A stretch of 64,000 nt of DNA from Dictyophora rubrovolvata (taxonomy: Eukaryota > Basidiomycota > Agaricomycetes > Phallales > Phallaceae), in the NCBI GenBank assembly GCA_029959195.1, contig CP114123.1:620001-684000 (forward strand), in the 5' to 3' direction. The notes below the pieces were generated by a model that ran no database searches, was not told the DNA's origin, and saw nothing but the letters and a program-made list of their open reading frames with translations. Below, piece by piece: positions 5,799 through 62,277 of the stretch. Numbering within the stretch: position 1 is the first letter of the stretch; every line of letters starts with the position of its first letter. The translations under genes and the position numbers were made by a program.

Positions 5799-8699
5799 AA
5801 CGTAGAGCGAGCTTTTTTTCCTGATGACCAACGCTTCAACATGTAGTATTGGAATTCCTAACCAAGATTTGCTCCTCACTTATGATATGGGGGCCTATCT
5901 TCAAGTACTTCTAATTTATCCGGAACGCTGAATCGTATTAATGATTCTTTTTAGCCGACATTCAGGCCCGCTGACGGCTCCAGTGCTCAACGATTCGTGT
6001 TCCAAGGATCCAGGGGTTTGGCTTAGAAAAAAGAGATTGAATTCTTCCTGACGCAACGACTATCAACAGCTATAAATACGTATTGAAGTCTCTTATTTCT
6101 TGTTTTTGAATTCCCGTTATCTCAAAGCCGGGTTATACATGTATCGCAGTTCGAAATCCCAAATTTGAAAACTTGTTAGTCGTATGACCACTCTGGCAAT
6201 GCAGTATGCCCTTGTCAACACCATGAAGAACCGAGACATCCTAGTCTAAGATGAGATCTAAAAATCGTCCATAGTAAACTTACCTTCGTCTAGTAACTGT
6301 TGTATCTCCGGAAGTGGTCCACAATGTCAGTGAGCTCCTTACGCTGTTAAAGTCGACAACAGTTCCGTTGTTTAATTCGTTGAAATCAGGATTGTGCCAC
6401 GGGACAAAATACTTGGATTTTGTATGGACACAGTGAAGCTTTCTCCCGCTATGCTATACCTCGCGACATTCCCCGCCCCAAGCTCAATCATAATCCAGCT
6501 GGGATGTTTCCAGACTCAAACTGCAAGCGGAGAGGATAAATTCTAGATCAATCCACGGAAACAACTCACCCTTTCACATTGAAGTGCTCGAGCGAACGGT
6601 CGACCTCAAAAATACGCTCTTGCTGAATCGTTTTCCGTCCCCGTTAAAGTTATCACCACAGCGTCTCATTTTGAATCTTGAAACCTGACGCATCCCTTGA
6701 GATCGTCGTTTACTCCATTCTTTCGAGCAGGTCAGGCACTTTTCCGTTGGGATCGCTTTTAGGTGTAGTCGCATGCCTGACTACATAATGTAGCATAACG
6801 CAGTTTTGATTTGGGGACCTAAATATTATGATCTGGCGAGTATGATTATAGCTGTCCGAGCAGTTCTGAAAAGTCTGAATTTGAGGATAATGCGATATAT
6901 AACACGTTACGTCGCTGTCGAGCGCGCCGAGCCTGACAGATCCAGATAGCCCAGTTCAAAGCTCGGATGCATTCACCGGTGCACAACGCTCAGAGGTTCG
7001 AATATTTAATTAAAAAGTGATGCGACCGTTGGCTTCAACTAGAATGAGGAAGGGATGGCAGCCTGAAAAGGTCTCAGCTTCAAGCAAGCGCTCGCATAAA
7101 AAAACTATATTGGCGCCGACATCCATACTTGCGCCCCGATGCTGCTCACAAAGCCCAAAGAACCTCGCTGTAGCACTTCGCTGTATTCGTCAAAAGTTTT
7201 CGCGGTTCGAGAATAACGAGCTAAAATGGTTACGAACCCAAAAACGTGACACAAACTCAGAAAATCAGGACTTGGAGACCACATCTGGCAGCGCTACCTG
7301 TTAAACCGAGTGTTATGATACAAACCATATAAATGAGATAGATCACGTCGAGTATTGTATGTATCGAAACTATCTAACAAGCTATTGCCATTAGCTCATG
7401 CCACCGTTTTGATGCTAGAACTTCGCCGAGTCTGAATTAGGAGACAGGGCATGACGACAAAATCACCCCAAGTGCGGCTTTTTTATTGCTTTTTTTCCAT
7501 TAATTCTATGGGCTCAATGCACCAATTGTTTTCAAAAAAAGATACCTCGAAGTTCGGTCAATTGTTTCAATTATCGGTAATTCTCTTCATTCTTTGTTGG
7601 CATGCTGCTTTGAACGACAACGAAAGGAACGTACCAAATTATATTCCCTCGACAAATAAAAGGTATCAATAGGAATCCAAGAAGCGCCTTATTGTTTGAA
7701 CAGCCTCGGGCTGGTGAGACCGGCGAAAAGCTCGAAGTGGGTCGGCCCAGTCGGGTCGACAATAGTCTACTTTTCCTCTAAAGCGTGACATGACTGCTTT
7801 TTAAGGTGTACAATTATCAGTAGAGGAAGAGGCATATAAAGTGCGATGGCATTCATCATTTTCGGACAGTTCAGTTTTTCAGTTCTCTGTCGTTCTTTCT
7901 CGCTTCAAGTCAATCGGCCTACAAGTGACAACTTCCCATACTTGCCTGAGCAGCCTTTCAGTTGTTCCGTTCTCAGTGCCACTCTTTCATGGTGGCGGAT
8001 TGGATAATGCAAGTCGTGCAGTACCTTTTGACTGTATACTTACTCTCTTTCAGATTATAGACCTACCTTACTATGTGGAATGTACATACCACGAGCAAGG
8101 TGGTGAATTAAAAATAAATTGCTTGTCAATTTACATACGTGAGTTTAGATAATGCCCGGTTGAAGGCAGTGACGCCACTGTACATGGTCCACACCGAGTT
8201 CCTTGTTCGTGAGTGCACAAGTGACCTACCTACTTACACTTCTTAGTGGCAGATTTATTTCACACGCGTTCGATTGCAATGAAGGGTCGAATAAAGTTTT
8301 ATATGAAAAGTTCGGGAACAAAGTTTAGGCATGACGTACAAAATGTGGACTACCCCAATTTAGACAAACAAGAGCATCCAATCGACATGTGTTATTTCAG
8401 TCTTTCAATCAAAGTAACACTACTCAAGTGTTGTTTCGCTATTTTAGGTATGTCCTTAATACTTCAACCCTGGGTATTACACGAAGCGATTTCTTGTTGA
8501 TAATATATGAAGCCCATCATGGGCTTCGACAAGCAAGGCGTCATCTACATTTCGGAGATTCTCCCTTTGAGAGATCTCATTTCTGGTCAATCAATAATTT
8601 TTAGATCTGTTTACATGCTGTTCTAGTTTTCGCGTAACGACGGCACACATTACGCGGTCTCCTGCTCCGAGTCCATACATGATCACTGTCGCGCCCCTC

Positions 8700-8706
8700 T
8701 ATAAAA
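8700..8706 (+). promoter_or_regulatory. TATA box of the zinc-finger-like gene
   Basis: The sequence TATAAAA lies 82-88 bases before the ATG at 8788. Transcription would be expected to start about 30 bases downstream, near 8730-8740. This supports 8788 as the first in-frame ATG. Confidence 0.5.
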
Positions 8707-8787
8707 CGGTCAATCTTCCATGTCCGGTTCACAAATTCTTCTTTGCCTCGAACGATTAACACTTACTTCTCCCGTCCAACCTCTCCA

Positions 8788-11410
8788 ATGTCTTACTCTT
8801 ACAAGGACACTACTTGGTCTGACCCCCTCGACATGCCTCTAGGGGCGTACGAAAGTCTTACTTTTGAGGACTTTGAAAACTACCTCGAGACCCAAACGGC
8901 CAACCCATATTCCTCCCCCAAACGCCCTCAACAACCCCAACCCATTGCATCAACATCCTCCCCAATCCCCACATCTGACTCTAACGCATACTCTTCGAGC
9001 ATCTACTTTGCTTCACGAGCCTCTTCACTTCCTGAGCTCTTCTGGACATCAGACGCGTTCCATCCTATTCCACATCCATCCCCGTTCGCCACCCCCCTCC
9101 TGGAGGATGACTACGCCTTTTTCGCCAATATAGACCTCCCGCCTCTTGATTCTAATCTCCCCAACGGTAAGGTTCATTAAATATATTCGCTTTCTCTTAT
9201 ACTCCTTTTAGTGGCGACCAATCCCCAAGTGCCCCACTCACCCGAACCGGTCGTCAGACATCCTCCCTCCAAAAAGAGACTCTGCACAAATGAAGAGTCT
9301 GAATGCCCCGATAACACGTCAAACGACGCGTCTTTTAATCACAAGCGTCGGAAGCTGTCTATTGATAGTCACCAGAACCTACCTGGTACGCTCATACACG
9401 TTATTCGTGTATTCTCATTCGTTAACGCCTCCTCTTATTCAGACGTCCCTCCTCCCACGAATTTTCACAACAGCAGCAGCAATGCGGTCTCTGACACCTG
9501 TAATAACTTTAGTGAGTTAAGATATTTGTCCACGTAGAAATTAAATGAAATGTGTTTAGACTTATCTGTTGGGAATGACAACGCTTTTCTTGCGAACATA
9601 GATCCATCGCTTCTCAATTCTAACCTCTTCAATGGTAAGTCTTATTATAAATAGTTCTCTTGATTTTTCTAACGTTTCTTTCAGTAACGACCAACCCCTC
9701 GATACCCCATGTGCCCGAGCCGGGCCGACACCTCTCTCCTCCCCCCAGAAATTTAAAAAGACCTTTCGCGAACGAGGAGCCCGACTTGATCAATGTGTCA
9801 AATGGCACATCAGCTAATCCTACCAAACGACACAAGCTGTCCACTGATCGTTATAAAGACCTATCCAGTATGTCCAAAACCTTTCTTGGGTGCCACGTTT
9901 CCTCATTCATTGGCGTATCGTGTTATCTCAGCCATCCCCCCTCCTCCGGGCTTCTTCGACAACAACAGCAGCAATGCAATCCCGGACATCGTGAATAATG
10001 GTTGTAAGTATGAATCAATTATATACTTCTGTCTTTATAATAATAATTGGGCGTGGTATTGGCAGACGTTCCGGCTTACGTTCCGGCTCCAACCTTATCC
10101 ACAAATGCAATACTGCCACAACCTTATCCAAACCCTAACATGTTTCATAGTATGTGCCATTGACAACCTTTAATGGTAATGTTTATCCCCTGACGCGTGT
10201 CGGACAGACGTTCCTGCCCCTTTCGTGAACACTTCACCTGCTCCTCCTGCCGCTAGGCCGCTCCCATCTGCTTATGTGCCTTCCACTCAACCTGGTTTCA
10301 ATGTCATGAGCAGAGCAAATAAATATCCCTCAGGATTGGTTGTCGACCCAAACAACTTATATACCGGTTAGTCCTAGGTTCCATCTCTCATGATTTTTTT
10401 ACTCACCTCTCATTTAGCTGCGGGAGATTGTAACAATTTTCCTTGGGGCCCGTTGTCATATTTGACACCGCCTGAAGTCGAAAATAGCCCCTTTGATCGG
10501 ATGCTTGGTCTTCCTGGTTCAAAAAACATTTATAGTGCGACTGGTAAGTGTTCTGTATTATTCTGAGGATGTCGATTAACTGGCGTGTCGTGCACAGCCC
10601 CCGGTGCCTCGGTACCAACTCTTGTTCCTGCCTTTTTGGGACAACAAGCACCAAGTGGAGTGCCACATAATAATGTAATATACACTGACACGTATGCAAA
10701 CAGTGAGTACCACCATTTACACAGAATAATATTAACGACTTTACTAAGATGCAGTGCACTCGGGTGTTGACATTTGTCAACACTCGAGACCCACCAACTC
10801 GATGTCGATGACAGGACATACAGCAAAGGCGAGTATGCCCAGTACTTGTATGCCCTCGACAAGGGCGGCATCAAGTGCTGAACCTATCTTGACTTATAAA
10901 TTTTATCAACCAACCCTGTCTCCTCCCTCTCCTCCCTCTCCTCCCACCCCAGCGTCGAGACCTACCCAAGCTCGCCCTAAACGACACGGCCCGCAACTCG
11001 TCCCGGCAAGACATCTCTGGAAACGGTGTGAAGACGGCACCTTTGTATGTCTATACAAAGGTCCAGCGAAGCCAGACGGATGCTGCGAATGTCCGACCAG
11101 TTTGAGAAACCTGGGCAGGCACATGCGCACCCATGCGTGCGCAGAGGACGGGATGTCCATTCCTCAGGCTGAAAAAATTGCCTTCAACGGCCTGCCAGAT
11201 GACCTGCGAATAAAAGTAGCCACTTGTTCTTTAGATGATGCAGAATTGCATCATTGTGCCTACTTTCGCAAGCATGGCAAACGCTGGGAGGAAGAGACGT
11301 TGAAGAGACCGGACGGTATGTTGCGGCAGCACGAAAACTGGAATCATCCGCCTGAGTATCGAAGGATACGGAAAGCAAAGTCTCGGAAGAAACGGAGCGC
11401 AAAGTCTTGA
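8788..11410 (+). CDS. Zinc-finger-like nuclear protein with duplicated exon block
   Basis: Eleven exons join cleanly into about 693 residues: 8788-9166, 9212-9385, 9443-9511, 9560-9634, 9685-9867, 9932-10003, 10066-10149, 10208-10366, 10418-10543, 10598-10702 and 10755-11410. All ten introns are phase 1, so every internal exon is symmetric. The end of exon 1 plus exons 2-3 resemble exons 4, 5 and 6. Examples are AFFANIDLPPLDSNL versus AFLANIDPSLLNSNL, KRRKLSIDSHQNL versus KRHKLSTDRYKDL, and DVPPPTNFHNSSSNA versus TIPPPPGFFDNNSSNA. The first 460 residues are low-complexity and Pro/Ser-rich. The last exon carries CCECPTSLRNLGRHMRTH, a C2H2-like finger with an unusually short C-to-H spacing, and a basic C-terminus (RKAKSRKKRSAKS). 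A DNA-binding nuclear protein is the likely role by inference; no named family is assigned. Confidence 0.85.
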
Positions 11411-12291
11411 CTATGCGCCTTTGCGAGCCGGTGACGACAATACTGTCATGAAACAAACTTGTCGCGGTCTATGTCTGTACATTTCTGTTTCCTCTTTGTA
11501 TTTAAATCCTTTGTCATCATCCAGTAGAATATCAGCAATCCTGTATAAGCACATACCATCATGTACCATTTTCATCCCCAATCATGTACTTTACCTTCAT
11601 CGTGTATTCCCATCCTCCTTGATAACAATCATTACCTTATTGTGACAACCCACCACAGAAGGAGAAACAAGAACTGGCCTTGACAAACCCTCACAATAAC
11701 AAGGCCTTTTATACACGTTTGCGTCGAAACAAAAAAAAAAGTCGAAAAACAATGGCTGAAAGGGTCCGTTGTATCGATCAGTTACGGACCCCTTGTCACG
11801 AGCCTTGTCATCTCGCGGCAAGTCACATGCGCCACCTAAGATTCCATATCAGGAATTAGCCAATCAAAAACCGAAGATACCGATCGGCGTGACAACGGCT
11901 CAAGACGTCAACTAGAGGCGTCTCGTGTCGCAGGAGCCCTTGCATGCAGGCCGTGTCGATCACCAACATACATATAAATAAAAACGTGCAAAAACAACAT
12001 GCAGATGAAAGAAAATTTTACGGGGGTGGAGAGCCCTTGCTGCATGCAAGGGAATTAAAAACATTGTACCTACAAAGTAGTCGTAGAAATAAATTGTAAG
12101 CATACATAAACCAGAAATGGGAGCTAAAAATGTCAGGGTCGTGAGATAGCATGGAAACAGCATGAATGACAATATGTTTAAAACCAGAAAAAAAAAAACA
12201 AGATCATTGATCCTTTACACGCCGTTGCTTCACTTGTCTCCGCATATATCGTCTAGCAATCTTCGGTCCAAACTAAAGGGGAATACCACAA
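11411..12291. other. Convergent intergenic stretch
   Basis: This is 3' flanking DNA of two convergent genes. Poly-A-like runs occur at 11731-11742 and 12188-12199. No further gene was recognised. The alternative last exon of the phosphatidylserine synthase (12272-12204) would fall inside it. Confidence 0.5.
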
Positions 12292-25539: not shown

Positions 25540-27032
25540 ATGTTATCAGTCTCCGGTCTTGTTGACCTTGTAGCAAAGGCTACTTTTTTCACGTCTACCT
25601 TCACTAGTGATGTCTTTACTAGTGATGGGCGTGTCAGATGCGCTGACGGAAATTTGGCTCCTCATGCTGCCTGTTGTCCTTTCTACGCTTTGCGAGACGA
25701 TCTCCAAGCCAACTTGTAATGTATCTCTTTGTTAGTAAAGGTTTTGTATTGACATTGGTTTTTGTTGATTAGGTTCGATAATCAATGTGGCGAAGACGTC
25801 CACGAGTCTCTCCGCTTGACTTTCCGTAAGTACCAGCTCTCTACTATTTAGACGTGAGATTGAACGTTTTCAGATGATGCGATCGGGTTCTCGTCCGCTC
25901 TTAAGCATGAAGGACACTTTCCGGGCGGGGGGGCAGACGGTTCAGTTTTGGTGTTCCCCGACATCGAACCAAACTTCCCCGCCAACCTTGGCATCAACGA
26001 CTCAGTCGACTCGCTCCTCCCTTTTTTAAACAAATACGAAGTCAGCGCCGGCGATCTCGTCCAATTTGCCGGTGCAGTCGGTATTACTAACTGCCCTGGT
26101 GCGCCGCGCCTCCAATTCTTAGCTGGTCGTCCCAATGCTACCGCGCCGAGTCCAATTGGCCTTGTCCCTGAACCCCAAGACTCCGTTGACAAGATCTTCC
26201 ATCGCTTCGCTGATGGAGGAGGATTTAAACCTCATGAAATCATTGCTCTTTTGGCTTCTCACAGTATTGCTCGCGCCGACCATGTTGAACCCACTTTGAA
26301 AGCTGTACCATTCGACACCACTCCCTTCACATTCGATACACAGTTTTTCCTTGAGGTCCTTTTGAAAGGAGTTGGATTCCCTGGAACTGGAGGCAACCCG
26401 GGTGGGTAAATTATTGGTTTCCTGAGGGCAGCAAATTGATTTATGTATAATACATGATAAATATAGGCGAGGTTCAGTCTCCCCTCCCAGTCGGGAATGG
26501 TGACGATGTTGGTGAATTGCGTTTGCAATCCGACTTTTCTCTTGCTCGCGGTAAGCTGAAGTTCTTCTACAAAATTATTGTTACATACGCTCATCACATC
26601 ACTCTTTTCTAGACCGTAGAACAGCATGCACCTGGCAAGGGTTCATCAACGAGCAAGAAAAGATGAGCAAAGCTTTCGCCGCCGCAATGGCCAAACTCGC
26701 CGTCAATGCTCAAGACGTCTCTAAATTGGTTGACTGTTCCGAAGTTATACCCAAAGCCACTCCACCCGTTTCCAAACCTGCTACGTACGTGTCTTTTTTT
26801 CTTGTTTAAAATCATTCTTTTTTGCTCACTATGTGTTGCAGTTACCCTGCTACCAAGAGTCGCGCCGATATTGAGAAAGCATGCTTCCTTCATCCGTTCC
26901 CAAAGTTGGCTACTGACCCCGGTCCCACCGAGACTGTAATCCCGTAAGTCCCGGTGACCCACGAATCCCTGTACGTTTGACTCAATCGATTACAGTCATT
27001 GCCCTAACGGCGAAGACGACTGCGATTCTTAA
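25540..27032 (+). CDS. Manganese peroxidase (class II, AA2)
   Basis: Seven exons fit in phase: 25540-25715, 25773-25825, 25874-26401, 26467-26550, 26613-26784, 26842-26943 and 26996-27032, about 383 residues. It is a heme peroxidase of the lignin-degrading class. The distal arginine and histidine are in LRLTFHDAIGFS (R73, H77), calcium-site residues are in GGGADGS, and the proximal histidine is H206 in ASHSIARAD. All three manganese-binding acids are present: E66 and E70 in GEDVHES, and D212. The surface catalytic tryptophan of lignin and versatile peroxidases is replaced (A201 in [10 protein letters not shown]). The enzyme should therefore oxidise Mn(II) to Mn(III). The N-terminus lacks a convincing signal peptide, which is odd for this secreted family; a missed upstream exon is possible. 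The C-terminal tail ([12 protein letters not shown]) has two extra cysteines. Confidence 0.93.
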
Positions 27033-61153: not shown

Positions 61154-62277
61154 ATGTCTGTCTCTTCTGTAAGTTTGCTGCTTGCCAGTCGACGCAATAT
61201 TACTTTGAGAACTTACTAGAACGTTGCAGATTCCAGAAAGCTTGGACATGACTCAAGATGCTGCAACTTTACTACGTCTGGGGACTGCTGAAGCTCATGA
61301 AAAGGCTGAGCAAAGCGTTGGAGCGAAGCTTTTGACGAGTGGCGGGCTATCTAGAGAAAGCTATATTTGCTTTCTGGTTGTACTGTGGCTTGTTTACTCG
61401 TAAGTCTTCTTCCCTAATATCGCTGAGGGACGATGAAACAAACCTCGCTTCCTCTTCAAGTACTTTAGAAGAAGCCCTTGATGCTCACAGCTCCGATCCT
61501 ATAATTTCTCCTACGTACAATCCTAGACTCCTCTCCCGAACATCTGCTCTATCCGCAGACATCGCATACTTTCTGCAAACTCCAGAGACAGAATGGAAAG
61601 ATCATCCTTTGATATCGTCATTCTACCGGAATCCACCTTCTGAAGTAAACGATTACGTCACATCCATCCGATCTGCTGCATCTTCTGATCGTTCAAGACT
61701 GCTAGCGCACGCGTACGTCAGGTACTTGGGCGACCTCAGTGGCGGGCAGGTCATTAAACGTCGCATACGAAAGGCCTATGGTTTAGTGGAAGAAGGACTT
61801 TCCGGAACTCAATTTTACGATTTTGAGAAGCTGAAGGGAAGAGGACAGGCCAACATTGGAGACATGCGGACTATAAAAGTATGGTACCGAGATGGATTGA
61901 ACAAGGGCATTGGAGACGACCTGGTGCGAAAAGGTAACGCTCTTGCTGTATTCACTTTCATCGCTTCACTCTCTGATATTTCTATTTCAATATTTCAAGC
62001 GATTCTTGTTGAGGAAGCTAACGTCGCTTTCCGCCTTAACGAAGGGATTCTCAGTCTTTTGCAAGAGGCGGAGGCTGAAAATCGTGCCAGCCCGGATAAG
62101 ACCCGACATACCCCTAAATCCAACCAGAAATCCGTCCCAGTGGCACAGGTATTTTCTTTGGTTTTGTTGGCGGCAGGGTTACATGTCGTGCTCCAATTGG
62201 GTGGTTTTGGAAGTCATACCAGCCATTTCAGCCAATGGATGCGCATCCAGAAATGGGTTTCGGATATTTTTGGTTGA
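61154..62277 (+). CDS. Heme oxygenase, tail-anchored
   Basis: Four exons, 61154-61168, 61230-61399, 61461-61933 and 62000-62277, give about 311 residues. Exon 1 encodes only MSVSS; an alternative start is the ATG of MTQDAAT in exon 2. The enzyme would open heme to biliverdin, CO and Fe(II) with electrons from a reductase. The proximal heme ligand is His28 in GTAEAHEKAEQ. The distal-helix signature YLGDLSGGQ lies at about residues 150-158, followed by VIKRRIRKAYGL. The C-terminus has one hydrophobic helix (VFSLVLLAAGLHVVLQLGG), as in tail-anchored ER heme oxygenases such as yeast Hmx1. It may serve heme turnover or iron recovery; no regulatory site was recognised. Confidence 0.92.

Follow-up and report, generated by a model that had tools for sequence, protein, structure and literature searches.

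A tandemly duplicated exon block in a gene with uniform phase-1 introns from a dispersed family of Dictyophora rubrovolvata

The locus and its gene

The window analysed here is a 64,000-nucleotide stretch of the Dictyophora rubrovolvata genome (C7:620001-684000 of 28.2 Mb in 11 contigs). Its forward strand carries a gene whose whole coding region (8788..11410) comprises 11 exons and 10 phase-1 introns, encodes 693 amino acids and ends in a TGA stop. All features of this gene described below lie on the same strand. The N-terminal part contains two tandem copies of a block of exon sequence. Block 1 opens with the final ~20 codons of exon 1 (8788..9166), which read DDYAFFANIDLPPLDSNLPN, and continues through exon 2 (9212..9385), with its basic cluster KKR...KRRKLS, and exon 3 (9443..9511). 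Block 2 consists of exon 4 (9560..9634), exon 5 (9685..9867), which is a copy of exon 2, and exon 6 (9932..10003), which is a copy of exon 3. Exon 4 is a probable hybrid: its first ~11 nt are similar to the start of the post-block exon, and the remainder resembles the end of exon 1. Exons 7, 8, 9 and 10 follow at 10066-10149, 10208-10366, 10418-10543 and 10598-10702. Together with introns 7-9 they form a stretch (10066..10702) that is single copy in both kinds of paralogue described below and shows no sign of homology with the exons of the block. The C-terminal domain is encoded by the intron-free exon 11 (10755..11410, stop included).

All 10 introns have GT-AG ends and are 45-64 nt long. Intron 1 (9167..9211) has its counterpart in intron 4 (9635-9684), and intron 2 (9386..9442) is homologous to intron 5 (9868-9931). 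A homology-blind gene finder recovered the start at 8788 and, in one setting, the stop at 11410. The same finder left intron 2, which is 57 nt long and free of in-frame stops, unspliced; we retained it as an intron because its counterpart in the paralogue L058 is 61 nt long.

Elsewhere in the window we found a gene for a peroxidase of the fungal class-II type (25540-27032; PF00141 with the fungal extension PF11895; mixed intron phases in an ab initio model) and a haem oxygenase gene at 61248-62277. Together with the short introns, this gene content would suit a basidiomycete of the white-rot type. Rfam and tRNA scans of the window gave no matches. The segment 5840-7222 is part of another dispersed duplication, with copies mainly at C6:2.38-2.45 Mb (78% at C6:2444591); those on C4 are shorter. 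Other contigs carry 13 matches to a short dispersed repeat at 11907-12069, with identities of 74-92%. The 161-bp segment 13451-13611 is 99% identical to the minus strand of C7:451093-451253, and the latter directly adjoins C7:451254-452698, a 72% match to window positions 6325-7776.

Intron phase across the gene family

Paralogues were modelled with a purpose-written spliced protein-to-DNA aligner that favours no phase over another, and either the window protein or L062 served as guide. Aligned to the window protein, L058 (C6:2.451 Mb) and L059 (C6:2.381 Mb) each have 11 exons and 10 phase-1 introns, and their internal exons differ in length from those of the window gene by multiples of 3, whereas their introns do not. 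The original prediction that every intron of the gene is in phase 1 is thus borne out, with 10/10 here and the same structure in two paralogues. Seven more distant paralogues (L060-L066) have 8 exons and 7 phase-1 introns each, and the remote L067, for which the model was built by hand, has 5 exons and 4 introns, all four in phase 1. In the final models of these 11 genes 83 of 83 introns are in phase 1 (30 + 49 + 4), a count that omits the decayed or fragmentary L068, L069 and L070. When the window protein served as query in a first pass, L060, L063 and L067 showed one phase-2 intron each among the matches listed; all three disappeared with a closer query (L060, L063) or with hand modelling (L067).

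The family also includes recent and decayed copies. L061, L062 and L063, located on two contigs, are recent dispersed segmental duplications, with 92-94% identity across almost the full length of the flanks retrieved. In L068 (C7:1083 kb), a decayed copy of the single-block type, the part that runs in L062 from the exon 1 end to approximately exon 6 is missing, and the C-terminal frame contains six stops. In the decayed L069 (C9:482 kb) a piece resembling window 7085-7468 abuts one resembling 9265-9516 (exons 2-3), and the junction between them looks as it would after a deletion.

Uniform phase could arise as an artefact of gene models in which junctions are picked by eye and by mutual homology. 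The guidance of the paralogue models by the window protein or L062 speaks for this, as does the limited agreement with the homology-blind finder (second-order coding model, trained on the window minus this gene, used at settings -10 and -8). The finder matched exactly only 51/83 or 57/83 of the modelled family introns, and at its strictest setting (penalty -12) the window gene was not listed at a score above 10. However, at the 11 family loci 66 of the 73 introns that it predicted at setting -10, and 95 of 123 at setting -8, are in phase 1, versus 9/22 and 20/53 in the rest of the window (Fisher P-value 5e-6 at the stricter setting, for introns that are not independent of one another). By these predictions the rest of the window has no phase-1 bias of the family kind. 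Hence the uniform phase is not due to homology-guided modelling alone. Moreover, indels between paralogues are in frame in exons but not in introns, and an artefact appears to us hardly credible.

Having phase-1 introns on both sides, all internal exons are symmetric and frame-neutral, as had been predicted, and of the 55 ways to join two exons of the window gene, none creates a stop codon at the junction. One could expect such symmetry to have been selected because skipping then yields many in-frame isoforms, every internal exon being skippable without a frame change. Yet phase-1 introns that were simply inherited yield identical frame neutrality, and we consider selection for isoforms very unlikely.

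Since paralogues inherit their introns and introns 4-6 copy introns 1-3, the family holds only about seven independent intron positions. The phase-1 share in Cryptococcus neoformans is given as 30.7% in Table 1 of PMC1574350. With this share, or with those predicted for the rest of the window (20/53 and 9/22), the chance of seven phase-1 introns in a row is 2.6e-4 to 1.9e-3 per gene. In a set of thousands of multi-intron genes such a run would not be very rare, and the gene was singled out for that feature. For introns of a basidiomycete amylase gene, PMC3584928 describes a slight, non-significant excess of phase 1. We suggest that the uniform phase mainly reflects about seven old introns that were in phase 1 by happenstance and were passed down as genes and segments duplicated.

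The duplicated exon block

Shuffling of the exon peptides of the window gene revealed three related pairs, namely the end of exon 1 with exon 4 (z 5.9), exon 2 with exon 5 (z 13.0) and exon 3 with exon 6 (z 8.4), each at P-value 0.001, the floor of 1000 shuffles. Among the remaining 52 of the 55 exon pairs compared, the best P-value was 0.003 (exons 5 and 6), and none is convincingly related. An older serial duplication, suggested by the VPxP starts of exons 3, 6, 7, 8 and 10 and treating these as one repeat, was unsupported by the exon-pair shuffles. Exons 2 and 5 are 174 and 183 nt long and exons 3 and 6 are 69 and 72 nt long, all multiples of 3, and corresponding introns (1/4, 2/5, 3/6) are equal in phase in all three pairs. 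The predicted match of the end of exon 1 and exons 2-3 with exons 4-6 thus stands for sequence and for phase but not for length, which is similar and not identical. A general repeat finder detected only part of the duplication (51 nt at 73%, at 9467 and 9959).

Two tandem blocks were found in three genes (the window gene, L058 and L059) and a single block in seven (L060-L066). The similarity extends to some of the introns. Introns 2 and 5 resemble each other in every two-block gene (z 3.5, 10.6 and 8.2). For introns 1 and 4 the resemblance is significant in L058 (z 3.2) and L059 (z 4.5) but not in the window gene (z -0.0), and between introns 3 and 6 similarity is undetectable in all three genes (z -1.0, 0.7 and -0.4). 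The 126 control pairs had a mean z of 0.05 and a maximum of 4.05. A search of the genome of this fungus found no block sequence outside the family and its decayed remnants, the counts being lower bounds.

Age, ancestry and selection

In trees of the blocks, built with and without introns, the block-1 copies, the block-2 copies and the single blocks separate with supports of 96-100. As the copies group by block, the duplication predates the split of the three two-block genes. In block exons, dS is 0.92-1.47 between blocks versus 0.23-0.52 between genes. Identity between block 1 and block 2 within a gene (0.64-0.70) is close to that between these blocks and the single ones (0.59-0.67), which suggests that the duplication and the divergence from the single-block genes are of about the same age. 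A tree of the C-terminal region rooted on L067 places two-block and single-block genes as sister clades (supports 95 and 97). Such a topology would fit either the gain of a block in one clade or an older gain followed by loss, and gain is only the shorter account.

Among the three two-block genes dN/dS is 0.27-0.73 in all 15 region-by-pair comparisons, both blocks included, and five whole-gene comparisons of single-block genes gave 0.35-0.48. The sequences thus point to a single, old duplication that took place in the common ancestor of the three two-block genes and has been maintained under purifying selection. The proposal of an exon-block duplication in a fungal protein of regulatory type has held up well: paralogues with a single block exist, some introns of the two copies are homologous and both copies are under purifying selection.

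Probable breakpoints and proposed mechanism of the duplication

The left boundary of the block lies inside exon 1 and not at an intron. Exon 1 lacks an acceptor, whereas its copy in exon 4 is preceded by one. Exon 4 opens with ACTTATCWGTT, 11 nt that agree with the head of the post-block exon at 7/11 positions in five of the seven single-block genes (4 and 5 positions in the other two), versus 1-4/11 for the in-register counterparts in exon 1; agreement at 7/11 or better is reached at ~1% of places in the locus. As the origin of the acceptor of intron 3 we compared a cryptic acceptor from exon-1 sequence with a copied acceptor, and the final 30 nt of intron 3 fit neither well. A copied acceptor is favoured by the 11-nt head of exon 4 only.

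We suggest that a single event of unequal exchange or replication slippage, in the ancestor of the three two-block genes, would have produced the tandem copy. The copied unit would begin within exon 1 and end just past intron 3, a few bases into the next exon. The copied intron 3 would then have supplied an acceptor and the few bases of the next exon, so turning the end of exon 1 into an internal exon, the hybrid exon 4. Splice sites would have been carried along with the copy, and the frame would have been kept if the spliced unit was a multiple of three, as it is now (330 nt). Because both breakpoints are probably exonic, it would be the length of the spliced unit and not phase symmetry that preserved the frame, to which symmetry would be irrelevant. 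The view that phase-1 symmetry enabled the duplication is unsupported, given the boundary inside exon 1 and an exon 4 head that resembles the post-block exon.

The same observations bear on an origin by exon shuffling of the animal style, in which the N-terminal half was built up as phase 1-1 exons were repeatedly inserted and duplicated and the triplet was added last, through recombination between introns. The symmetry of all internal exons in the final models and the 55/55 joins without a junction stop are what such an origin would leave. Six remote zinc-finger relatives were found and four of them, two-exon genes, were read; in 4/4 the intron directly before the zinc-finger exon is in phase 1, as if this were a founder phase. 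However, significant homology among the 55 exon pairs is confined to the three block pairs, the block starts inside exon 1, and L072 and L073 have additional predicted upstream introns in phase 2 or 1, phase 2 appearing in some settings. We therefore regard exon shuffling as unlikely. A broader proposal, that the N-terminal regulatory half of the family's proteins is encoded by an array of cassettes, all in phase 1, which expanded as exons duplicated and yields several in-frame isoforms through skipping, so that an animal-style system exists outside animals, seems to us decidedly improbable.

Predicted protein and promoter

Exon 11 encodes two sets of Cys and His residues at about 11048-11347, C-x10-C-x12-H-x3-H and C-x9-C-x24-H, and a stretch RNLxRHMRxH. 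C34, C45, H58 and H62, as well as C93, C103 and H128, are invariant in all nine aligned members. PF13909 gave weak matches in 7/9 members (best E 8.7e-6) and PF00096 in 4/9, while the window protein itself reached no Pfam family at cut-off (11.8-12.5 bits for PF13909 versus 27 required). In the PDB, zinc-finger proteins come closest in sequence, with E values no better than 0.041. A single-sequence structure prediction of the C-terminus had a mean pLDDT of 44.8 and was unfit for structure search. The N-terminal half is long, spread over many short exons and probably disordered. From these features we infer that the protein is probably a nuclear DNA-binding regulator.

The block includes an acidic/hydrophobic motif together with a basic cluster of the KR...KRRKLS type, both conserved across 13 block copies. 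The second block adds another acidic/hydrophobic motif (similar to DNAFLANIDPSLL) and another KR...KRRKLS cluster, and most likely this addition would act through dose, on activation or on nuclear import. Upstream of the gene, a region at 8230..8787 is conserved between the window gene and nine paralogues, with a TATAAAA at about 8700-8706. The ~520 bp before the start codon are 66-83% identical in the family, at least as high as parts of the coding sequence. This conservation, together with the TATA-like box, fits genes that are live.

Overall, we suggest that the gene is very probably a member of a dispersed family with inherited phase-1 introns and one tandem copy of an exon block, encoding a zinc-finger-like nuclear regulator in which the extra block would act by dose.

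Comparison with known systems

The Cys/His pairs, the RNLxRHMRxH helix and the weak Pfam and PDB matches liken the window protein to C2H2 zinc-finger proteins (PF00096, PF13909). Canonical C2H2 fingers have a Cys-Cys spacing of 2-4. The window protein differs in its spacing of 10 and in a score below the Pfam cut-off.

Tandem exon duplication is well known (Kondrashov and Koonin 2001, as cited in PMC3064661), and the window gene is a further instance of it; a search of the open-licence PMC literature found no report of exon duplication in Agaricomycetes. The gene shares with such cases the adjacent homologous blocks and the equal intron phases, and the corresponding introns are similar in part (2/5 in 3/3 genes, 1/4 in 2/3, 3/6 in 0/3). 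It differs in that the block starts within the first exon and spans three exons. With both a two-block and a one-block form of a fungal gene present in one genome, the duplication steps become directly readable, including the conversion of the end of a first exon into an internal exon.

Symmetric 1-1 exons are a hallmark of animal exon shuffling (Patthy), with a minor role elsewhere, according to PMC6335736. As with the modules treated there, the block in the window gene is flanked by introns of the same phase, so that copying or skipping keeps the frame. Unlike those modules, which are extracellular, the window protein is fungal, probably nuclear and probably disordered. Its block is also absent from unrelated genes in a search of its own genome, and its breakpoints are probably exonic. 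The likeness to the animal mode that had been proposed is thus formal only, with block sequence confined, in a search of this genome, to the family and decayed remnants of it. Where introns have simply been inherited, a uniform phase counts for little as evidence of exon shuffling.
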